A stretch of DNA of 25,809 nt from a virus, in the IMG/VR virus record IMGVR_UViG_3300023276_000880, positions 1-25,809 of that record; one strand, given 5' to 3'. This document shows positions 1,209-19,355 of this stretch, in pieces; the stretch's first letter is position 1; each line of letters opens with the position of its first letter. The notes under the pieces are model-generated. The model saw only the letters and a list, made by a program, of their open reading frames with translations. It searched no databases and was not told where the DNA came from. The position numbers were made by a program, and so were the translations under genes.

Positions 1209-2231
1209 ATGGATAATGAAAGTTTTGCAGTTATAGGTGATTTACATTTTGGACATAAAGAGGACCATGATACATTTGTCAAGTATCAGGTCCATTCCTA
1301 TTTGAAGGTCATTGATGATATCAAGTCTAAGGGTATTAAAACAGTCATAATTTTAGGTGATTCTACCAACAATAGAAAATCCATTACATGGACAACAATG
1401 GAGTTGGTTAAAGATAATCTAATTGACCCTGATTTACACTATATAATCATTGTTGGTAATCATGATGCATATTACAAGAACACCAATAAATTGAGTTCTA
1501 TTAGGCAGTTGTTTAAGGATCATGAAAATGTTGATATAATAGATACTGATGCCATAGAAATGACTGTAGATAGTAATAAATGTCTTTTTGTACCTTGGAT
1601 GACAGATGATAATATAGATACATGTATGTCTAAAATAGAGGCTTCAGATGCAACATATTGCTTTGGTCACTTTCCTATAAATGGTGCTTTGATGACCAAA
1701 GGAATTGTGTGTGGGGGAACTTTAAAATCAAAGATGTTCAAGAAATTTAAAAAAGTCATCTCTGGTCATTTTCATCTCAAGCAGAAAATAGGTAGCAATA
1801 TTATCTATATTGGGTCAATGTGTCAATTGGATTGGAATGATTATGGTGACTCTAAGGTATATCTGACAGTAGAAAAGAATGTCAAATCACACCAGATTGT
1901 GGATGATATTTTTGTTAAGATCAGCATTGATAAAGATTTCAAATTTGATGATCTTGCTCAATACAAAGACAAATTCCTGAAGATATATGTAAACCGGAAA
2001 ATGAAAGGTGTTGAAGAATCTGCTCTTATTGAGATTATTGAAAACTGTATTAAACATGAGATTATTGATAATACCATAATTCTTGATGAGGCTCTTGTAG
2101 ATGTTAAGGATCAGGATTTTGATAAGATGGTTTCAGAATATCTTGATACTGTTGATAGTCCAAAAAAGATAAAAAAGAAGTGTTATGAGATTATTATTAA
2201 TGAATATGATACAATACAGGCAGGAGAATAA
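1209..2231 (+). CDS. 47: Recombination endonuclease subunit, gp47/SbcD/Mre11-like
   Basis: A 340-residue calcineurin-like metallophosphoesterase, close to the 339 residues of T4 gp47. The conserved metal-site motifs appear in order: GDLHFG, GDSTNN, GNHDAY, GHFPI and GHFHL. In the T4 and SbcCD/Mre11-Rad50 families this subunit is the nuclease, which works with the ATPase subunit to resect DNA ends for recombination and recombination-dependent replication. Its partner gp46 follows immediately, one base after the stop, supporting the assignment. An in-frame ATG exists at 1158, but ATG 1209 is preferred: it starts one base after the upstream gene, has AGGA at 1193-1196, and puts the first metal motif about 12 residues from the N-terminus. 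Confidence 0.93.
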   Translation: MDNESFAVIGDLHFGHKEDHDTFVKYQVHSYLKVIDDIKSKGIKTVIILGDSTNNRKSITWTTMELVKDNLIDPDLHYIIIVGNHDAYYKNTNKLSSIRQLFKDHENVDIIDTDAIEMTVDSNKCLFVPWMTDDNIDTCMSKIEASDATYCFGHFPINGALMTKGIVCGGTLKSKMFKKFKKVISGHFHLKQKIGSNIIYIGSMCQLDWNDYGDSKVYLTVEKNVKSHQIVDDIFVKISIDKDFKFDDLAQYKDKFLKIYVNRKMKGVEESALIEIIENCIKHEIIDNTIILDEALVDVKDQDFDKMVSEYLDTVDSPKKIKKKCYEIIINEYDTIQAGE

Positions 2232-2232
2232 A

Positions 2233-4062
2233 ATGAGATATAAAAAATTAACCTGGAAGAATATATTGTCATATGGCAACAAACTAACATCTTTAAATCT
2301 TGATTCTAACAATACGGTTGGAATCACAGGCATTAATGGGCATGGTAAGTCCACACTATTAGATATTTTCCATTTTGTACTGACAGGTAAACCATACAGA
2401 AAGGTTAATAAAAGTCAGTTAGTCAATACCACAAACAAGAAAAATTGTCTGGTTATACTAGAAATAGAGCATAAGAACAAGAAAATTGTTATTGAAAGGG
2501 GTATTAAACCTGATATTTTCAAGATAACTGTAAATGGTATTGATCTTGATCAAGATTCCAAGTCATTGGATCAGCAGAAATGGATGTCTCAATTTCTCAA
2601 TATCAATCCAAAGACATTGAGAAACACACATTTCATTTCATCTACTAATTATAGTCCATTCCTTCAAATGACTGCATTGGAGAAAAGAACTTTCATTGAG
2701 GATATCCTGAATATTGAGATATTTTCAAATGTACAGAAGAATCTCAAAGCAAAACATTCTGTAATTATTGAATCTATCAGGGATTGTCAAACCAAGATTA
2801 ATCAATATGAGTCAAATCTTAAACTAGTTAAAGATATGATAGAAAACCAGAATAAAGATGATTCAGAGAAAATCAAAAATATTGAGGTTGAAATCTCTAC
2901 TATTAAGACTGAAATCAAAGCTCTTGAAGGTGAAGAGGTTGGTATAAATGAACAAATTCAGGAACTAACTGATATTATTAAGGATTTATCTGTTGAGAGA
3001 AATAAACTTTCAACTAAGAGAGATGCACAACAGAAAAAATATGATTCCCATATGAAAAAACTCAATGAAATAAAGAGAACTGGGTGTAATCATGTACTCC
3101 TCAATAATCAAGATATGAGTGGAAAGAAAGATTCACTAAAATTTTACAATGATAATAACACATGTCCAACATGTACACAGTTGATTGACCCTACTTTCAA
3201 AGATAATATGGTTAATAATCTTAATGAGAGTATATCAGAACTAAAAGCAAAGGATGATGAATATCAGGAGAAGCTGAAAAAGCTGGATCTTAAGATGAAA
3301 AAGTTGGATGGTGTCTTTGAGAAAATCACCATAGTATCTGATAAGATTACTAAAATGGGTAATGATATTTCCAGTAAACAGAATGAACAGTATGTTTTAC
3401 AAGAGAAATTATCAGGCAGCAAGAGAATGATAAACTCAAAACTCAATACTATCACCAATAGAGAAAATGATATTACTGAGTTGAAGAAACCAAAGGAAGA
3501 TGTAGTTGATAATACAGAAAAACTTACAGGTCAGTTAGATGAACAGAATAGATATCTGAATAGATATAATGACACTTCTGAGGCTTATGATTTGGCTTTT
3601 AAACTCTTATCTGATAAGGGTATCAAGCAATATATCATCAAAAACTATATCCCTCTACTGAATAGATACGTGAATCAATTCTTAGAAATATTTCAGGCTC
3701 ATTATAGGATTCAGTTTGATGAGAATATGAAAGAAACCATTGCAGTTAAGGGTTATGAAAAATTATCATACAATTCATTATCTGCTGGTGAAAGGGCAAG
3801 GGTTGACCTAAGTCTTTTATTTGCATTCCTGAACGTATCTAAGAGCCGTGAGTATGTTACATCTAATATCTTGATACTTGATGAGGTAGCAGACGCAAAC
3901 CTTGATTCTGATGGACTTGAGGGGTTGATAGAGATCCTTGAGAAGTTAAAACAGATGGGGTATACCACATTTACCATATCACATAGAAAAGAACTTTCTG
4001 GTAGATTTGATGAATCATATGTTGCACTCAAAAAGAAATTTTCACAACTAATATTACAATAG
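2233..4062 (+). CDS. 46: Recombination endonuclease ATPase subunit, gp46/SbcC/Rad50-like
   Basis: A 609-residue SMC-like ATPase, slightly longer than T4 gp46 (560). Walker A is GINGHGKST at residues 33-41. Two long charged coiled-coil arms flank a zinc-hook CPTC at residues 311-314, which dimerises partners through Zn. An ABC-type signature SLSAGERAR comes near the C-terminus, followed by Walker B LILDEVAD and a SHRKE switch histidine. With gp47 it forms the complex that opens and resects DNA ends. AGGAG at 2222-2226 lies six bases before ATG 2233; an in-frame ATG at 2185 would overlap gp47 by 47 bases and is less likely. Gene order 47 then 46, directly adjacent, differs from T4, where other genes lie between them. 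Confidence 0.95.
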   Translation: MRYKKLTWKNILSYGNKLTSLNLDSNNTVGITGINGHGKSTLLDIFHFVLTGKPYRKVNKSQLVNTTNKKNCLVILEIEHKNKKIVIERGIKPDIFKITVNGIDLDQDSKSLDQQKWMSQFLNINPKTLRNTHFISSTNYSPFLQMTALEKRTFIEDILNIEIFSNVQKNLKAKHSVIIESIRDCQTKINQYESNLKLVKDMIENQNKDDSEKIKNIEVEISTIKTEIKALEGEEVGINEQIQELTDIIKDLSVERNKLSTKRDAQQKKYDSHMKKLNEIKRTGCNHVLLNNQDMSGKKDSLKFYNDNNTCPTCTQLIDPTFKDNMVNNLNESISELKAKDDEYQEKLKKLDLKMKKLDGVFEKITIVSDKITKMGNDISSKQNEQYVLQEKLSGSKRMINSKLNTITNRENDITELKKPKEDVVDNTEKLTGQLDEQNRYLNRYNDTSEAYDLAFKLLSDKGIKQYIIKNYIPLLNRYVNQFLEIFQAHYRIQFDENMKETIAVKGYEKLSYNSLSAGERARVDLSLLFAFLNVSKSREYVTSNILILDEVADANLDSDGLEGLIEILEKLKQMGYTTFTISHRKELSGRFDESYVALKKKFSQLILQ

Positions 4063-5284: not shown

Positions 5285-5788
5285 ATGAATGATAATACTT
5301 ATATAGGAACACCAGTTTATTTATCAAATAATCCATTCCATCAATTTAATATGGATGTTGAACTAGTACATAATGATGCTATTATGCCTCAAAGGGCAAA
5401 TAATAGTGATGCTGGTTATGATGTATTTGCATTGGAGACAGTTGATATCTATCCGAACAAGGATATTTTGATTGATCTTGGATGGAGATGTCAGTTTTCA
5501 GAAGGTTTTGCTATGATTATGAAAAATAAGTCAGGTAGAGCTGTAAAGGATAAGTTGGTTTTGGGTGCCTGTGTTATTGACTCAGGGTATAGGGGAAATA
5601 TCATGTTACACCTATTTAATCATGGTAATCATGCTATAACTATCAGAAAGGGTGAGAAAATATCACAGTTTATTATAACACCAGTATGGACCGGAACAAT
5701 AAATCAGGTTGAAAATATTGATATGGATTCTGATAGAGGTGAAGGTGGTTTTGGTAGTACTGGATTAATAAATGAGGAGACTGTTTAA
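5285..5788 (+). CDS. dut: dUTP diphosphatase (dUTPase), trimeric type
   Basis: A 167-residue protein carrying all five dUTPase motifs in order: motif 1 NSDAGYDVFA, motif 2 NKSGRAVKD, motif 3 GACVIDSGYRGNI (uracil pocket, catalytic Asp), motif 4 RKGEKISQFIITP, and the C-terminal motif 5 RGEGGFGSTG that closes over the nucleotide in the trimer. It converts dUTP to dUMP and pyrophosphate, keeping uracil out of phage DNA and supplying dUMP for thymidylate synthesis. About 25 residues precede motif 1, somewhat longer than the shortest family members. AAGGAG at 5267-5272 lies 12 bases before the start. The stop overlaps the first base of the recombinase gene. Confidence 0.95.
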   Translation: MNDNTYIGTPVYLSNNPFHQFNMDVELVHNDAIMPQRANNSDAGYDVFALETVDIYPNKDILIDLGWRCQFSEGFAMIMKNKSGRAVKDKLVLGACVIDSGYRGNIMLHLFNHGNHAITIRKGEKISQFIITPVWTGTINQVENIDMDSDRGEGGFGSTGLINEETV

Positions 5789-6984
5789 TGGCAAAAAAAG
5801 ATACACTGTTTGATAAGTTGGTGAAGACTGCTAGAAAGAACAATGATTTTGCATTTAAGATGAATGAGGAAAATCCATATGAGGTCAAGGAGTGGATTGA
5901 TTCAGGGTGTTATGTATTGAATGCAATGTTATCTGATGGTGATATGTTCAAGGGATTTCCTGCTGGTAAGAGAATTACCATGTCAGGTGCTGAATCCACA
6001 GGAAAATCACTATTGACAATATTGATGATCAAGATGTATTTGAAATCAAAACCAAATGCAAAGGCAATATTTTTTGAGTCTGAAGGTTCTAGTACGGTTG
6101 ATATGGCTAGAAAGGCAAAGATACCAGAAGAGAGTATGATTATCTTACCTGTATCTACTGTAGAGGAAACTAGGAATCAGATGGTCCAGTTACTTGATAT
6201 GATCAATGATACAAAATATGGTTATACTAGAACAAAGTCAGAGAAAACAAAAAAGATTGTAAGAACAAAGATCAAAGATTTTAAACCAGTACCAGAAGAT
6301 GAGCAAGAACATTTCATTTTTGTCCTTGATTCTTTGGGTATGCTTGGTACTGAGAAAGAAACAGAGGATGCTGGCAATAGTAAAAATACAGTAGATATGA
6401 CCAAGGCAAAGATGATTAAGAGTTTTGCAAGAGTGGTTTCGTTAAAATTATCCATGTCTCAATGTCCATTTGTCATTGTTAATCATATATATGCATCATT
6501 AGATCAATATAAACCACCTGTTGAAAGTGGTGGATCTGGTGTGGCATACATGAAAGATGTATCTTTATTGATTAATAAGAAGAAACAGAAAGATGGTACT
6601 GAACATATTGGTTCATTGCTCCAATTGACTGCTGGTAAGTCAAGATTTATGCAAGAGGGAAAATCTGTTGTAGTTGCACTAAATTTCAAGAAGGGTATTA
6701 ACAAATATTCGTATCTATATGATCTTGCTAATGAACTTAAAGTATTTAAGAAAGATGGATATTCTTGGATTCTTGCAGATGGAACCAAGGCAACAATGAA
6801 ATCTATCAGGGAAAATCAGTCAAAGTATTTTAAGAATGAACAAAATTTACAGGCTGTCAGAGATGCAGTGTATGAGAATTTTACATTTGGTGGAGATACA
6901 TTCATGGATGATATAGATGATGAAATGGAGGATTCAGATGATAGTATCATTATGGAAGATGATAAAGATGAGATTATGGAATAA
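5788..6984 (+). CDS. uvsX: UvsX/RecA-like recombinase
   Basis: A 398-residue RecA-family ATPase, similar in length to T4 UvsX (391). It has Walker A GAESTGKS at residues 67-74 (K73), the FFESEGS stretch that in the family carries the catalytic glutamate, Walker B FVLDSLGML, and the SRFMQEGKSVVVAL region with DNA-binding-loop character. The C-terminal 30 residues are highly acidic (DDIDDEMEDSDDS), as is common in RecA and UvsX tails. It would form the filament that pairs single-stranded ends with homologous DNA. It starts on the last base of dUTPase, with GAGGAG about 11 bases upstream, and sits before the helicase gene. Confidence 0.9.
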   Translation: MAKKDTLFDKLVKTARKNNDFAFKMNEENPYEVKEWIDSGCYVLNAMLSDGDMFKGFPAGKRITMSGAESTGKSLLTILMIKMYLKSKPNAKAIFFESEGSSTVDMARKAKIPEESMIILPVSTVEETRNQMVQLLDMINDTKYGYTRTKSEKTKKIVRTKIKDFKPVPEDEQEHFIFVLDSLGMLGTEKETEDAGNSKNTVDMTKAKMIKSFARVVSLKLSMSQCPFVIVNHIYASLDQYKPPVESGGSGVAYMKDVSLLINKKKQKDGTEHIGSLLQLTAGKSRFMQEGKSVVVALNFKKGINKYSYLYDLANELKVFKKDGYSWILADGTKATMKSIRENQSKYFKNEQNLQAVRDAVYENFTFGGDTFMDDIDDEMEDSDDSIIMEDDKDEIME

Positions 6985-7160: not shown

Positions 7161-7370
7161 ATGCCGATATATGAATATAAGTGTCAGAAATGCGATAATG
7201 AATTTGAGTATTTGGTTGTCAAATCAACAGATGTTGTTGTTTGTCAGAAATGTAATGACCCAAATTTAACTCAAATACCCTCATTATCAACATTTGAGCT
7301 TAAGGGCCAGTGTTGGGAAAAGGATGGTTATACTAGAGAATATAATGTTTTAACAGATGCGGTGAAATAG
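7161..7370 (+). CDS. FmdB-type zinc-ribbon protein
   Basis: A 69-residue protein opening MPIYEYKCQKC, the hallmark of the FmdB/CxxC_CxxC zinc-ribbon family, with a second CQKC at residues 28-31; C8, C11, C28 and C31 would hold one zinc. Family members are annotated as putative regulatory proteins, but their biochemical role is poorly known. The gene begins one base after its upstream neighbour and its stop overlaps the GTG start of the helicase gene, so it is probably co-translated with the helicase. A role in transcription or in zinc-dependent protein contacts is possible, but nothing here decides it. Confidence 0.75.
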   Translation: MPIYEYKCQKCDNEFEYLVVKSTDVVVCQKCNDPNLTQIPSLSTFELKGQCWEKDGYTREYNVLTDAVK

Positions 7371-8776
7371 TGGATAATATAGTATTAAAACAACTGATTG
7401 AAAATCAAGAGTACCTTGTAAAAGTCCTTCCACATCTGAGGAAGGACTTTTTTGGGACGTATTCAGGGAAACTAATATACAAAATAATCAAAACTTTGGT
7501 TAATAAATACCATAGGAAACCAACATATACAGCAATTATGAATGCTGTTCAAAAGATTGATAATATTAACGAATCTGCTTTTAATGAAGTCAAAGAGGAT
7601 CTATCGGACATTCAATCAAATTATGATGAAGAGTTAGATTTTGAATGGTTGATGGATGAAACAGAGCAATTTTGCAAAGATAAGGCAATGGAAAATGCAA
7701 TTTTTAGTTCTGTTTCAATATATGAAGATAAAGAGAAACCAAATACTAAGATTGAAGAGTTGATAAGAGATGCACTTAGTATATCATTCAAAAATAATAT
7801 AGGTATAAATTATTTCAAGGATGATGATATCAAAAGAAGATATGAGTCTATGACAAGTGTCAAGAAAAAGTTTAAATCTCATCTCAGTGAGTTTAATTTG
7901 GTATGTGGTGGAGGAATAGAACCAAAGGCATTATCATTGTTGGTTGGTGATACTCATAGTGGTAAAACTATGTCTATGGTGTCATTAGGTGCATCTTATG
8001 TGAGAAATGGGTATAATGTACTATATGTCACTCTTGAAATGAGTGAGGAAAAGATAAGTCAATTATTTGATGCTAATTTTATTGACATGGAAATCAATGA
8101 TATTCCATCTCTAACATATGATAATTTCCATAGTAGTGTCAAATCATCTTGGCAGGATGGACATGGTGATTTATTTATTAGAGAATTTCCAACTGCCGGA
8201 GCGGGAACAAATGATATCAGGAATCTTTGTAATGAGTTAAAGATTAAGGAAGGATTTGAACCTGACATTCTTATAGTTGATTATGTTAATCTCATGAGAT
8301 CAGACAGGTATTCAAATGCGGACTCATACACCATGATTAAGTCCATAGCAGAAGAGTTAAGGGGTTTGATGGTTGATATGGGTTATGCTGGTTTAACAGC
8401 CACACAGCTAAATAGAGGTGGTGCTGATAGTGCTAATCCTACCATGAGAGATACTGCTGAATCATATGGTTTACCTGCAACTGTTGATTTATTGGTTGCA
8501 ATGTATACTAATGAGGATCTTCAAGCACAAAATGTTATCATATGGAAATATCTCAAAAATAGGTTTGGTGGCATTACTGGACATAAAACACCTTTTACTA
8601 CACTTTTTGAAATGGCAATGTTATGTGATATAAAGAAAGAACATGATGATGTTCCATTTATTAAAAACTCAGAAAAGACTATTGCATTGATAGAAAAGAT
8701 GAAAAGAAGGTCAGATGCAGGAGTTGCAGATACATGTGTATCTTCGGATATTAATGAACTTTTTGATGAGGGCTAA
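7370..8776 (+). CDS. 41: Replicative DNA helicase, gp41/DnaB-like
   Basis: A 468-residue DnaB-family hexameric helicase, close to T4 gp41 (about 460-475). The N-terminal 60 residues follow the gp41 pattern (LKQLIENQEYLVKVLPHL...). The RecA-like core carries Walker A GDTHSGKT at residues 193-200 (K199), ETMS-like LEMSEEK, Walker B ILIVDYVNLM, and the TATQLNR sensor motif. It would unwind the replication fork 5'-3' with a primase and loader encoded elsewhere. The start is GTG 7370, overlapping the upstream stop; the conserved N-terminus supports it. Codons 17-28 contain an intrinsic-terminator-like hairpin, described separately. Confidence 0.9.
   Translation: MDNIVLKQLIENQEYLVKVLPHLRKDFFGTYSGKLIYKIIKTLVNKYHRKPTYTAIMNAVQKIDNINESAFNEVKEDLSDIQSNYDEELDFEWLMDETEQFCKDKAMENAIFSSVSIYEDKEKPNTKIEELIRDALSISFKNNIGINYFKDDDIKRRYESMTSVKKKFKSHLSEFNLVCGGGIEPKALSLLVGDTHSGKTMSMVSLGASYVRNGYNVLYVTLEMSEEKISQLFDANFIDMEINDIPSLTYDNFHSSVKSSWQDGHGDLFIREFPTAGAGTNDIRNLCNELKIKEGFEPDILIVDYVNLMRSDRYSNADSYTMIKSIAEELRGLMVDMGYAGLTATQLNRGGADSANPTMRDTAESYGLPATVDLLVAMYTNEDLQAQNVIIWKYLKNRFGGITGHKTPFTTLFEMAMLCDIKKEHDDVPFIKNSEKTIALIEKMKRRSDAGVADTCVSSDINELFDEG
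7420..7453 (+). terminator. Terminator-like hairpin inside the helicase coding sequence
   Basis: A perfect 12-pair stem (7420-7431 with 7440-7451) around the eight-base loop ACATCTGA. It has a GC-rich core, GTCCTTCC/GGAAGGAC, and the 3' arm runs into six T residues (7448-7453). This is the full architecture of an intrinsic terminator. It lies 50-84 bases into the gp41-like gene, within a part of the protein that follows the T4 gp41 N-terminus, so the reading frame through it is real. While ribosomes translate this region the hairpin should be masked; when translation fails, transcription could stop. Confidence 0.65.
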
Positions 8777-9906: not shown

Positions 9907-11148
9907 ATGGATAAAGGCAAAATTTTAACTCAACTACAAAGGGATATTTTACAACTAAAAGAAGAAAACCCAACATATTCATCAAGAGATATTGCAGTTG
10001 TACTTTCTTGTAATGATCGGTATGTTAGGAAGGTAATATCACATTTTTATGATCCAGAACCAGAAGTGTTAAATGAAGATAATGTTGGTGAAATTTTAGT
10101 TCATTCTTTAGATCTTGAAAAGAAAAATCAGAGACTGAAAGATCAACAGAGAATTGAGAGAAAAATTAGAGAAGAATATAGGTATGATAATGCTGTAAAT
10201 GTATATACTAAAGAGTTAGTTAAAATCTTTGAAAATAGACCCAAACATGATATACCAACACATCATAGTTATAACATAGATACACATGCAGGTATTTTTC
10301 ATATCACAGATACACATTTCAATGAATTGATCAATATAAGAAATAATCAATATGATTTCAAAATAGCATCTAAAAGGCTTAGGAAGATGGTTGTTGAGGC
10401 CAAAAGAATATTTGATGCATATCATATAGATAAGGTTTTGATTGCATTCACAGGTGATTTAATCAATTCTGACAGGAGATTAGATGAGCTTTTGAATCAG
10501 GCTACCAACAGGGCAAAAGCATCATCTCTATCAGCTATTCTACTTGAGCAGGTTATTTTAGATCTATCCTACGAATATGATGTGTCTGTTGCATCTGTAT
10601 CGGGAAATGAGGGTAGAGTTAAAGATGAATATGGTTCATCTGAGGTAATGTTGACTGATAATTATGATTATAATGTCAATGAAATGTTGAAGTTGATGTT
10701 TAGACATGATTCAGAAGTAAATTTTATTGATGGTTCTGCTGGTGAAAATGTTGTCAATCTCAATGGAAAAAACATTCTTCTATTACATGGAAACCAGATA
10801 AAAGCTAATCATATGAAATCCATGCAGAGTATTAGAGGAAAATACTCAGATATGGGTATCAAGATTGATTTTGCATTATATGGTCATTTACATGCTACTC
10901 TTATCACAGATTTCTATGCAAGATCAGCTAGTTTATGTGGTGCAAACTCATATTCTGACAATGATTTACAGTTTTCGTCAAAAGCTAGTCAAAATATACA
11001 TATAATAAGTGATACAGATATTCACTCATTTAAGCTAGATTTACAAAATGTAGATGGTATTGAAGGATATAAGATTGATGAGGATCTTATAGCATATAAC
11101 GCCAAATCACACGAAAAAATATCATGGATAGAGCCTAAAAAGATCTAA
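9907..11148 (+). CDS. Metallophosphoesterase with N-terminal helix-turn-helix
   Basis: A 413-residue protein. Residues 1-45 look like a DNA-binding helix-turn-helix (SSRDIAVVLSCNDRYVRKVI). After a charged linker comes a calcineurin-type phosphoesterase domain: DTH (D135, H137), GD (D184), GN (N234), H294 in LLHGN, and GHLH (H327, H329). The family motif GNH[DE] reads GNEG here, so the usual histidine after Asn is replaced by glutamate. These folds cut phosphodiesters or phosphomonoesters; with a DNA-binding domain, a sequence-directed nuclease is plausible. It is distinct from the gp47 gene, lies in the unit behind late motif 1, and is followed by a strong terminator. Confidence 0.75.
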   Translation: MDKGKILTQLQRDILQLKEENPTYSSRDIAVVLSCNDRYVRKVISHFYDPEPEVLNEDNVGEILVHSLDLEKKNQRLKDQQRIERKIREEYRYDNAVNVYTKELVKIFENRPKHDIPTHHSYNIDTHAGIFHITDTHFNELINIRNNQYDFKIASKRLRKMVVEAKRIFDAYHIDKVLIAFTGDLINSDRRLDELLNQATNRAKASSLSAILLEQVILDLSYEYDVSVASVSGNEGRVKDEYGSSEVMLTDNYDYNVNEMLKLMFRHDSEVNFIDGSAGENVVNLNGKNILLLHGNQIKANHMKSMQSIRGKYSDMGIKIDFALYGHLHATLITDFYARSASLCGANSYSDNDLQFSSKASQNIHIISDTDIHSFKLDLQNVDGIEGYKIDEDLIAYNAKSHEKISWIEPKKI

Positions 11149-11175: not shown

Positions 11176-11211
11176 AAAAAAGGCAACATATTAATTTATG
11201 TTGCCTTTTTT
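11176..11211 (+). terminator. Intrinsic terminator after the phosphoesterase gene
   Basis: The stem has GGCAACATA (11182-11190) paired with TATGTTGCC (11197-11205), extended by an A-run upstream pairing with a T-run downstream, around a six-base loop, TTAATT. The T-run ends at 11211. The A-rich upstream side could also support termination from the opposite strand. It separates the unit ending at 11148 from the structural genes beginning at 11275. Confidence 0.9.
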
Positions 11212-11274: not shown

Positions 11275-11541
11275 ATGGATGTAAAAGAGAAAATTAATGG
11301 AATTTTCATGGATATTCTTACAGAAGATAGCACATATTACAATGTAGGAGATGGAGTTAAATTCACCCCTGAAGACGTAGCACAATATAATGTTGGTAAG
11401 GAGATTGGTTTTGATTATGGCAAGATTGTATCTCTGAAGGGTATGGATTATGTTGTAGAGCTTGATAGTGGTGTTAAAATCACTGTTAAGAATCAAAATG
11501 CATATGCATTTGGTAATGCAGATGGTGATGCTAATCCATAA
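11275..11541 (+). CDS. Small structural or internal head protein with scaffold-like N-terminus
   Basis: An 88-residue protein. Its first 18 residues match the scaffold gp22 start residue for residue in key places: MD(V/I)KE at 1-5, F11, D13, and LTED at 15-18. LTE fits the T4 prohead protease rule (Leu/Ile-x-Glu then cut), so residues 1-17 may be a removable targeting peptide. The remaining 71 residues include a KOW-like beta stretch (GKIVSLKGMDYVVELDSGVKI). It could be a head-packaged internal protein, analogous in logic to the T4 internal proteins, or a minor core component. GGAG lies about nine bases upstream. Function is inferred only. Confidence 0.6.
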   Translation: MDVKEKINGIFMDILTEDSTYYNVGDGVKFTPEDVAQYNVGKEIGFDYGKIVSLKGMDYVVELDSGVKITVKNQNAYAFGNADGDANP

Positions 11542-11556
11542 TAGGAGAGTCATATT

Positions 11557-11919
11557 ATGACTATAAGCTCAGAAACAGGAACAGTAAATGGTTCTGATGT
11601 AACATATAATATCCCAGGAAGAGGATCAGCTAGAGGTGAGGGTGTAATTGCATACATTGATTATACTTTAGCTGGTTCTGATGCCCTTATCCTTACAATG
11701 TCTTTTCAAAATACTGAAATTAATAGTGATGACTATTTTAAACAGATTGTTGTGGATACAGGGATATTAGAGTTAGCATCTATTAGTGTTACGGCTACAG
11801 GTCTTTATAGATTACCTATAGCAACTGCACTAAATGAAGAATCTGTGACATTAACATTTAGTGGTTTAGATACAGGTGTGGTTAATGTTGAATTCTCTGT
11901 AGATAATGGATTCGTTTAA
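11557..11919 (+). CDS. Probable virion structural protein, beta-rich
   Basis: A 120-residue protein rich in Thr, Ser, Gly and Val with alternating beta-strand patterns throughout (DALILTMSFQNTEI, ESVTLTFSGLDTGVVNVEFSVDNGFV). This is the look of a small tail-fibre, fibre-adaptor or head-decoration domain, but I recognise no specific family. There are no cysteines and no membrane segment. GGAGAG lies just upstream. Its stop overlaps the start of the fibre-like gene in TAATG, so the two are probably co-translated and may act together. Confidence 0.55.
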   Translation: MTISSETGTVNGSDVTYNIPGRGSARGEGVIAYIDYTLAGSDALILTMSFQNTEINSDDYFKQIVVDTGILELASISVTATGLYRLPIATALNEESVTLTFSGLDTGVVNVEFSVDNGFV

Positions 11920-12380
11920 TGACAATTAAAAATAAAAGCAGATATGATATATTTAGAGATGGATTGACTTTAGGTGAAATTAATTCGCTTAAAAATATTG
12001 CTAATGGACTTTGTGGATTAGATGAAAATGCAAAAGTACCAATAGCACAACTTCCAGATAGTATTACTGGTGCTATATATTATTTAGGCACTTGGGATTG
12101 TTCCACAGGTTCATACCCTGTTGGACCTAATCAGGGTGATTATTATATTTGTAATGTTGAAGGTACAATAGGAGCTGTTGATTATCTTGTTGCTGATTGG
12201 CTAGTCTATAATGGTTCTACATGGGATAAAATTGATAATTCATATGGACATGATCACGATTATAGATACTATACTCTAACTGAAATTGATACATTTTTGG
12301 TTCAAGATGATATGCAAGTGTTCCTTCAGGTTTTCCAAACAGAGATGATTCTGTTATTAGCTTTGATGATGGAACACTAA
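11919..12380 (+). CDS. Tail-fibre-like protein, N-terminal part (frame breaks near 12311)
   Basis: A 153-residue open frame whose first about 130 residues are typical of phage fibre proteins: KVPIAQLPDSITGAIYYLG, then GNWD-like GTWDCSTGSYPV, GDYYIC, and DWLVYNGSTWDKIDNS. After DTFLVQDD the frame turns into an unlikely hydrophobic tail (ILLLALMMEH) and stops. From 12311 the -1 frame reads on as fibre-type sequence (YASVPSGFPNRDDSVISF) without a stop down to 14578. So this is probably the 5' part of one longer gene, split by a single missing base, a programmed -1 shift or a sequence error. Confidence 0.7.
   Translation: MTIKNKSRYDIFRDGLTLGEINSLKNIANGLCGLDENAKVPIAQLPDSITGAIYYLGTWDCSTGSYPVGPNQGDYYICNVEGTIGAVDYLVADWLVYNGSTWDKIDNSYGHDHDYRYYTLTEIDTFLVQDDMQVFLQVFQTEMILLLALMMEH
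12309..12380 (+). other. Frame break or possible -1 frameshift window in the fibre gene
   Basis: The upstream frame is open to 12380. The -1 frame has a TGA at 12308-12310 and is open from 12311, so a -1 shift must occur within this interval. The change of protein character points to its 5' end: GATGATATG here would read through as ...DDYASV if one more T were present (GATGATTATG). No standard slippery heptamer is obvious; TTTTCC at 12331-12336 is the nearest slippable run. Confidence 0.6.
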
Positions 12381-12484
12381 CCTTTAGTATTACACCTTCT
12401 GGAGCTGATTTTGATGTATATAGTGATAGAATTTTATATACATTTGATGAAGCACAAACAGCAACAATAACTGACACTGAAGGA

Positions 12485-14578
12485 ATGTGGCATTTCTATT
12501 TTGATACAGATGGTGTTTTACAATCAACACAAACACTTGCAGAATCACTAATATTAAAATATGCATATATATCTAATGGTTATTGGGATGCAGATGCTAA
12601 TACTTTAATATTGGTAGCAGATGAGAGACATGGGCTAACAATGAACCCTATGACTCATCTATATCTTCATGATACTGTAGGAACAAGATTTCAAGAAGGT
12701 TTAGGTCTAGTCAGTATTGTTTCTGATGGTGATGGAAATCTTGATGCTTCTGCTCAATTTGGATATGGTACGGGTATTATATGGGATGAAGATATCAAAT
12801 TTGATTTTTCTGGGGTAGCATCTCCAGCACAAATTCCAGTATTTTATAAAACTGGTACATTTGGGTATTGGAGAAAAGATACTGCAACAAATTTCCCAGT
12901 TAAAAATTTTGTTGGTGGTGATTCTAGATTAGCATACAATGAATGGACAGGGACAACTTGGCAACAAACAGAAATAACTAATAATGATTTTGGTTTATGT
13001 CATTTATTTGCAACTAATGATTCAAATCAACCAATTATATCTATTCAAGGTCAAGGTGATTTTACAAGACTAAATCAAGCTAGAGAGGCAGCAGCAACAG
13101 AAATTAATAATCTTATTACTACCGGAATGCCATTTCAAGAATTTTTAGCTATAGCATCAGTTATATACCAAACATCTAATGGATATACAAATGATGTAAA
13201 ATCAAGAATTAGAACTACTGATACTGGTGATGATTATATTGATTTCAGATATTCATTTGGTGGTGGAACTGCTGGATCTGTAAATGATCATGGTTCATTA
13301 TCAGGATTAGATGATGATGACCATACCCAATATATGCTAAGAACCGACCTTGCAGAAACAACTCAAGGTGATACTGCTGGTATGTATGATGTTGGCTTTC
13401 CGGTTATTAATACTCCTGTATGTGATAGTTTAGGTTGTATAATTAATAAAAGTCTTTCTGCTGGAGTATTAACAGGTGGATCAATAACAGATGCAGGATC
13501 AAATACTATTGATGTTGCTGCTGGTACAGGATTAATAAAAGCATTAGATCTTGAAGATGCTGAACTTTTAGCCTTTGAATGGCCTGAACTAACAGGATAT
13601 GTAGTACCTAGTGATAGTGTTAGATATGTAGGTGTTGAATATAATGCAGGAACACCACAAATTGTAATTAAAACAACAGATACGTGGGATTTAGATACAG
13701 ATTTTCCATTAGGTAAAGTAGTGAGAAATGATAATCTCCATACTCTAAATGATCCTTGGTGGGTTGGTGATATCCATACAAATATTCTAGAAAGATTTCA
13801 AGGAATAGGTAAATTCACTAGAGATGCTTTTATTGGTGGATTAATGATATCTGTACCAGGGACTAGAAATCTTGCTATAACTGCTGGTAGTGTTTGGACG
13901 CATATTAATGAGTTTGAAATATCATCATTAGATACAAGTATATCTGGAACATTTGCTATATCTTGGGTAGATACTATTGGAAATCACACAGAATCAAGTG
14001 TATCTCAATATCCAATAGGCCAGTGGAATGATCTAACCGAAGATACATTACAAACAATATCAAACAATGATTATGCAAATTGGTGGGTATATGCTGAAGT
14101 TGAGCATGATGTTTTACATTTGGTATATCCTCAAAATGTATATTCTAATTCTGCTAGTGCTGAAGTTGAAACTGCACCAGTAAATATACCATTACATGTA
14201 CAAGAAACAGCTATATTGGTTGGTAGAATTCTTTTTCAGCAAGGTAATGATACTCCTATAGCTGTTCAATCTGCATTTGAAACATCATTTTCTGCCTCTT
14301 TAGTTGCAGATCATGGGAATTTAGCCGGATTATCTGGTAATGATCATCCACAATATGCTTTAGTTTCTGATAGATTTGTTTCAACTGAACAAACTGGAAC
14401 TGCATCTCAACAAACAATAGCTCATGGGTTATCAGGTACACCAACAGGGGTTTTAGTATCTGTTACTGATGACAATTCTGGTGGTGGTTTTGTAATCACA
14501 GAAGGAACCCATGATAGTACAAATGTATATGTCACATGTACAACTGATGTTAAATATAAAGTTTTGGCTTTTCTATAA
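12485..14578 (+). CDS. Tail-fibre-like protein, C-terminal part
   Basis: A 697-residue frame from ATG 12485. Fibre-like coding is continuous from 12311 (about 58 extra residues including SGFPNRDD and DTEGMWHFYFDTDGVL), and 12485 has no good ribosome site, so its true 5' end probably lies in the gene before. Two copies of the fibre motif H-x-x-L-x-G-L-x-x-D-D-H-x-Q-Y occur: DHGSLSGLDDDDHTQY in the middle and DHGNLAGLSGNDHPQY near the C-terminus. The end (GTASQQTIAHGLSGTP) resembles phage fibre or spike C-terminal domains. It probably binds host surface or forms a trimeric fibre shaft. Its place directly before the portal gene is unlike T4. Confidence 0.7.
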   Translation: MWHFYFDTDGVLQSTQTLAESLILKYAYISNGYWDADANTLILVADERHGLTMNPMTHLYLHDTVGTRFQEGLGLVSIVSDGDGNLDASAQFGYGTGIIWDEDIKFDFSGVASPAQIPVFYKTGTFGYWRKDTATNFPVKNFVGGDSRLAYNEWTGTTWQQTEITNNDFGLCHLFATNDSNQPIISIQGQGDFTRLNQAREAAATEINNLITTGMPFQEFLAIASVIYQTSNGYTNDVKSRIRTTDTGDDYIDFRYSFGGGTAGSVNDHGSLSGLDDDDHTQYMLRTDLAETTQGDTAGMYDVGFPVINTPVCDSLGCIINKSLSAGVLTGGSITDAGSNTIDVAAGTGLIKALDLEDAELLAFEWPELTGYVVPSDSVRYVGVEYNAGTPQIVIKTTDTWDLDTDFPLGKVVRNDNLHTLNDPWWVGDIHTNILERFQGIGKFTRDAFIGGLMISVPGTRNLAITAGSVWTHINEFEISSLDTSISGTFAISWVDTIGNHTESSVSQYPIGQWNDLTEDTLQTISNNDYANWWVYAEVEHDVLHLVYPQNVYSNSASAEVETAPVNIPLHVQETAILVGRILFQQGNDTPIAVQSAFETSFSASLVADHGNLAGLSGNDHPQYALVSDRFVSTEQTGTASQQTIAHGLSGTPTGVLVSVTDDNSGGGFVITEGTHDSTNVYVTCTTDVKYKVLAFL

Positions 14579-19279: not shown

Positions 19280-19313
19280 TTGTGACCCACATTGTGTGGG
19301 TTGCAATCTTTTT
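19280..19313 (+). terminator. Intrinsic terminator 1 after the capsid gene
   Basis: TTGTGACCCACA (19280-19291) pairs with TGTGGGTTGCAA (19295-19306), twelve pairs including two G-U, around a three-base TTG loop, followed by TCTTTTT. It lies 34 bases after the capsid stop. Confidence 0.85.
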
Positions 19314-19355
19314 AAGGGGTATCTAATTTATTTTAGATGCCCCTTTTTATTTTTC
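19314..19355 (+). terminator. Intrinsic terminator 2 after the capsid gene
   Basis: AAGGGGTATCTAA (19314-19326) pairs with TTAGATGCCCCTT (19333-19345), thirteen pairs including one U-G, around TTTATT, followed by TTTATTTTT. It directly follows terminator 1, so the strong capsid transcript is stopped twice before the baseplate unit. Confidence 0.88.

Follow-up and report, generated by a model that had tools for sequence, protein, structure and literature searches.

The gene for the gp41-like replicative helicase of this uncultured T4-like phage contains, about 54-84 nt into its cistron, an RNA hairpin that stands an even chance, judged from its sequence, of being an intrinsic-terminator-like attenuator that selection maintains in a small clade of such phages, and that probably limits how much of the helicase gene is read. 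A putative terminator within a gene is usually taken for an accident; this one lies in a gene of the replication core and has persisted, pair by pair, across a divergence that erased most other silent similarity. If it does terminate, T4-like phages would have a simple, cis-encoded means of setting replisome stoichiometry that needs no regulator. The features discussed below are listed in Table 1; the window denotes the whole stretch of 25,809 nucleotides that was analysed (IMGVR_UViG_3300023276_000880).

Table 1. Features of the window referred to in the text (positions are those of the window unless preceded by L102, the corresponding sequence of the sister phage G002)
Feature	Position	Strand	Details
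UvsX-like recombinase gene	5788-6984	+	Upstream of the helicase gene, same direction; PHROG 97, E=4.5e-57
FmdB-like zinc-ribbon ORF	7161-7370	+	Pfam Zn_ribbon_8; its TAG overlaps the helicase GTG
gp41-like (DnaB-type) replicative helicase	7370-8776	+	GTG start overlaps the upstream stop; PHROG 19, Pfam DnaB_C
Extended 16-pair hairpin	7415-7456	+	Codons 16-29; lower stem 7415-7418/7453-7456 plus U.U mismatch
12-pair hairpin	7420-7451	+	Arms 7420-7431/7440-7451; 8-nt loop 7432-7439
8-pair terminator-type core stem, GTCCTTCC/GGAAGGAC	7424-7447	+	d score +11.0 with T6 tail
T6 tract	7448-7453	+	Encodes Phe27-Phe28 (TTT TTT); kept in L102
Hairpin in the gp47-like gene (start about 1209)	1262-1293		GGACC A UGAUAC ... 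GUAUCA GGUCC
Hairpin in the gp46-like gene, UGAUUCUAAC/GUUGGAAUCA	2301-2326		L102 1202-1227
Intergenic terminator-like hairpin	11176-11211		Strong, bidirectional, 15 pairs; between ORFs 9907-11148 and 11275-11541, both + strand
Tail-fibre-like genes	11919-14578		L102 9265-10899
Tandem terminator-like hairpins	19280-19345		Directly after the major capsid gene

Direct reading of the sequence confirmed the perfect 12-pair stem with a GC core, an 8-base loop and six Ts that a sequence-only reading had placed at codons 17-28 of this ORF. From position 7420 onward the sequence runs AAAAGTCCTTCC - ACATCTGA - GGAAGGACTTTT - TTGGG; all 12 pairs are Watson-Crick, five of them are G-C, and the six Ts occupy 7448-7453. 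The core stem, with eight pairs (five G-C), a loop of eight and a stability of -12.6 kcal/mol, has the stem and loop of an intrinsic terminator, for which some 5-12 pairs including G+C and a short loop are expected, and the U-rich tract that belongs to such an element, TTTTTTGGG, is found directly 3' of it. When the stem closes fully, four of these Ts are taken up by pairing with the A-run, and for this reason the pattern scan missed the hairpin. Perfect stems of at least 10 pairs with short loops occur twice in the window, here and in the intergenic hairpin. No Rfam match was obtained anywhere in the window, and no known RNA family or tRNA was found for the hairpin. The idea that it masks an internal start, preceded by the Shine-Dalgarno-like GAGGAAGG, was rejected, since no in-frame start lies at a suitable distance and the motif is absent in L102.

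The helicase matched PHROG 19 over residues 1-405 (E=1.3e-88), and its N-terminus, including the codons of the hairpin, aligned with T4-like gp41 proteins, the motif KV.P being conserved in relatives. Because of this alignment the start is not mis-called, which bears out what had been proposed about the gp41-like N-terminus. The gene order in the window is uvsX-like, small ORF, FmdB-like ORF and helicase; the core stem begins 54 nt into the helicase gene and 54 nt beyond the upstream stop codon.

Putative terminators were evaluated with a d'Aubenton-type score (threshold >0). On the + strand of the window three sites were positive: one after the capsid gene (33.6), one in the intergenic region at 11182 (15.8) and the helicase hairpin (11.0). 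The helicase hairpin was the sole positive coding site on this strand, the next coding site scoring about -24, and none of 40 recoded CDS sets reached +11.0. The earlier description of a terminator-like architecture inside a correctly called helicase gene is upheld. Terminator-like hairpins also trail the capsid gene in L090, L094, L096 and L098, as they do in the window.

A second contig, IMGVR 3300027861_000479, is 99.985% identical to the window over 6.7 kb and carries the same hairpin bases, so an assembly error is unlikely. The sole closer relative found was the sister phage G002 (L099/L102), a 60-kb contig reached by capsid-based linking; a blastn search against the phage collection gave no match, and viral scans and a genome scan for more clade members yielded, besides the window phage itself and G002, no one but G008, which is more distant. 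The L102 helicase is 63% identical to that of the window, and the four-fold sites of the gene are 36% identical. At the same codons the L102 sequence, AAAGGTCTTTC...GAAAGACTTTTTT, folds alike, and the extended stem retains 15 of its 16 pairs (L102:5046-5087). Relative to the window, two pairs differ in both partners (C-G to U-A inside the stem and, at its base, C-G to A-U), and four differ in a single partner; in this comparison of two aligned rows, window phage and L102, sliding the arms by one column lowered the pairing to 66%. The same structure with paired changes, as expected of a conserved RNA, is therefore present in this one relative. The helicase of G002 is preceded by the C-terminal part of a family-B polymerase, unlike that of the window phage; since the upstream gene differs, the hairpin travels with the helicase gene. 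That upstream region (L102 3911-4990) encodes a stand-alone C-terminal polymerase part, which suggests a split polymerase. Elsewhere in the two genomes, the tail-fibre-like genes are 90-98% identical in DNA whereas their neighbours are about 60-70% identical, which suggests a recent exchange between the window phage and G002; the G002 gene looks as though two window ORFs had been fused and shortened internally.

The evidence for selection on this hairpin comes from comparing the two species that bear it with synonymous and simulated sequences. In L102 its stability exceeded that of synonymous variants (p=2.7e-4), departed from a simple divergence null (p=1.5e-3) and was reached by one of 40,000 codon-substitution simulations started from the window (p=2.5e-5, under a null with heavy tails). 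A joint scan of the window and L102, which covered 21 genes in 2,312 aligned segments, placed this site first. These values make coding chance alone unlikely as the origin of the hairpin, and we consider selection on it likely.

What has been selected is less evident, because total hairpin stability gives a clearer signal than terminator strength does. The terminator score of the L102 hairpin is -11.2, below the threshold and only marginally above synonymous chance (p=0.056), and its core stem is weak (-5.4 kcal/mol, three G-C pairs). Selection may thus act on hairpin stability as such, and a credible though doubtful alternative is a conserved RNA structure that does not terminate, whether a start-proximal hairpin that slows the first ribosomes, one that protects the message from RNase or exposes it, or one bound by a phage protein; the U-tract would then be merely two Phe codons within the stem. 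This alternative draws on the pairs beyond the U-tract, in the lower stem, which still form with changed bases, and on another hairpin, some 50 nt from the start of the gp47-like gene, which has no U-tract and recurs at these codons in L102 with compensatory changes on both sides of two pairs. Against it, the lower-stem pairs in L102 are largely dictated by the amino acids, Rfam offered no match, and in each of the two phages the core with its T6 tract surpasses every other coding site as a putative terminator; in the 11.4 kb of L102 it is the most terminator-like site of all, with a score close to that of the post-capsid terminator of G002 (-3.8). A further hairpin, in the gp46-like gene, keeps 9 of its 10 pairs in the same register in L102, with two double changes by eye, but the stability of the L102 hairpin is not significant. 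From these observations one may tentatively, and with low confidence, propose that the clade carries selected start-proximal RNA hairpins in the gp47-like, perhaps the gp46-like and the gp41-like genes, the last of which would be an attenuator fixing helicase dose relative to the upstream genes. Across all genes, a general hairpin peak at codons 16-30 was not clear once the gp41-like and gp47-like genes were removed.

Another explanation, which we regard as unlikely, is that the hairpin is a by-product of coding: the codons of the conserved peptide K-V-x-P-x-x-K/R-K-D-F-F would be self-complementary by luck, the window being an extreme case, and L102 would have inherited or repeated the stem. 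The peptide does favor pairing, as recoded variants of it average 9 of 12 pairs, and the T6 tract follows from TTT being a common Phe codon. When the hairpin codons were recoded synonymously with the phage's own codon usage, a stem of at least 12 pairs arose in about 6 of 100,000 variants, and 0.015% of them matched its folding energy; however, when all genes of the window were recoded, such a stem appeared somewhere in 2 of 60 runs. The hairpin is striking at its own site, yet a window searched throughout holds one by chance about 3% of the time, and many windows were scanned. The difficulty for this explanation lies in the sister phage and in the null tests and joint scan described above: four-fold sites are near saturation, yet the mutually pairing rare codons GTC (V19) and GAC (D26) are both retained in L102, whereas elsewhere at orthologous positions GTC was retained in 1 of 9 cases and GAC in 1 of 21.

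Distant relatives bear on the same question. Among about 140 gp41 homologues (about 35-41% identity) none had a comparable terminator-like element, apart from a weak case in L012. In 84 distant relatives sharing the motif (~37-40% identity) the hairpin site showed no excess stability (mean z -0.24, vs -0.15 in control segments), which favors a coding by-product, and the stem was not found in further [DE]FF-motif homologues; conservation of the hairpin across the family is thereby ruled out. The sequence-only reading had proposed to look for compensatory silent changes in relatives, and had held that relatives lacking the hairpin would speak against it. The nearest relative has both the hairpin and the compensatory changes, which are partly silent, whereas the distant ones have neither. 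Terminator-like hairpins near gp41 were found upstream in 3 of 143 cases, in the first 130 nt in 2 of 143, and in none in two control intervals. In the next relative, G008 (41%), the order is uvsX-like, small ORF, a GGGGGTTTTTAACCCCC-TTT hairpin and then the helicase, and in Pseudomonas phage pf16 (KU873925) an annotated terminator follows the uvsX-like gene and precedes gp41. The gp41 entry is therefore a rare place for a putative terminator, though the window phage is not alone in having one there.

Under the attenuator reading, part of the transcription arriving from upstream would end at about 7450-7454, before a ribosome reaches the RNA polymerase, and the helicase and the downstream genes would receive a fixed fraction of the upstream message. 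The hairpin would set the dose and not sense translation. A message ending here would carry, after the upstream genes, about 28 codons of the helicase but no stop codon, and would need ribosome rescue; because of this cost, termination is probably only partial. Measurements in E. coli are consistent with a constant effect (PMC4824070). There, translation lowers the efficiency of a terminator 30 bp past the start codon by no more than about 10%, the first ribosome catches the RNA polymerase only after 100-200 nt, and repression of termination by a ribosome finishing the upstream gene fades beyond about 30 bp, so that a terminator placed in the first 100 bp of a gene still works, with translation making little difference. 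With its core 54 nt into the gene, the helicase hairpin would be a constant partial terminator and no translation sensor, if the host behaves like E. coli. No open paper on the T4 uvsX-40-41 transcripts was found.

The sequence-only reading had instead favored translation-dependent attenuation, in which the hairpin would fold and transcription would end whenever ribosomes initiate poorly at the GTG, tying helicase dose to the state of translation. Non-ATG starts in both phages and the tight spacing behind the upstream ORF (stop overlap in the window, a gap of 10 nt in L102) agree with this proposal, which is nonetheless improbable, since the position effects measured in E. coli oppose it: the hairpin is too near the start for ribosome protection, and 54 nt past the upstream stop exceeds the range of repression. 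No competing pairing for the left arm was detected within 150 nt upstream in either phage, and neither the mutually exclusive antiterminator nor the leader peptide of a translation-coupled attenuator was found. Finally, stem-loop-mediated transcriptional slippage at T6 giving an alternative product, suggested by the position of the hairpin directly 5' of the U-run, was ruled out as extremely improbable, because a shift of frame runs into a stop within 6-16 codons in the window, or 0-6 codons in L102, and yields no usable or conserved product.

Several known systems share parts of this arrangement. The slippage site of the Roseiflexus IS630 transposase (PMC5009743) likewise has a hairpin 5' of a U-run in a coding gene, whereas the helicase site has no useful alternative frame. 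Translation-linked attenuators of the pyrBI type (discussed in PMC4824070) also have a terminator hairpin inside an open frame; unlike in them, no leader peptide, antiterminator or pause system was seen with the helicase hairpin, and the frame is the structural gene itself. The predicted terminator of pf16 is also located at the entry to the gp41 cistron, but just upstream of the gene and not within it. In E. coli, Term-seq revealed premature 3' ends inside ORFs and in 5' UTRs, some with intrinsic-terminator signatures (PMC7815308); those within coding genes were mapped on RNA, whereas termination at the helicase hairpin, here as in the next comparison, is predicted from sequence. The tR2 constructs studied in E. 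coli (PMC4824070) likewise place a hairpin and U-tract soon after a start codon in an operon; those constructs were engineered, whereas the helicase hairpin of this phage is natural.
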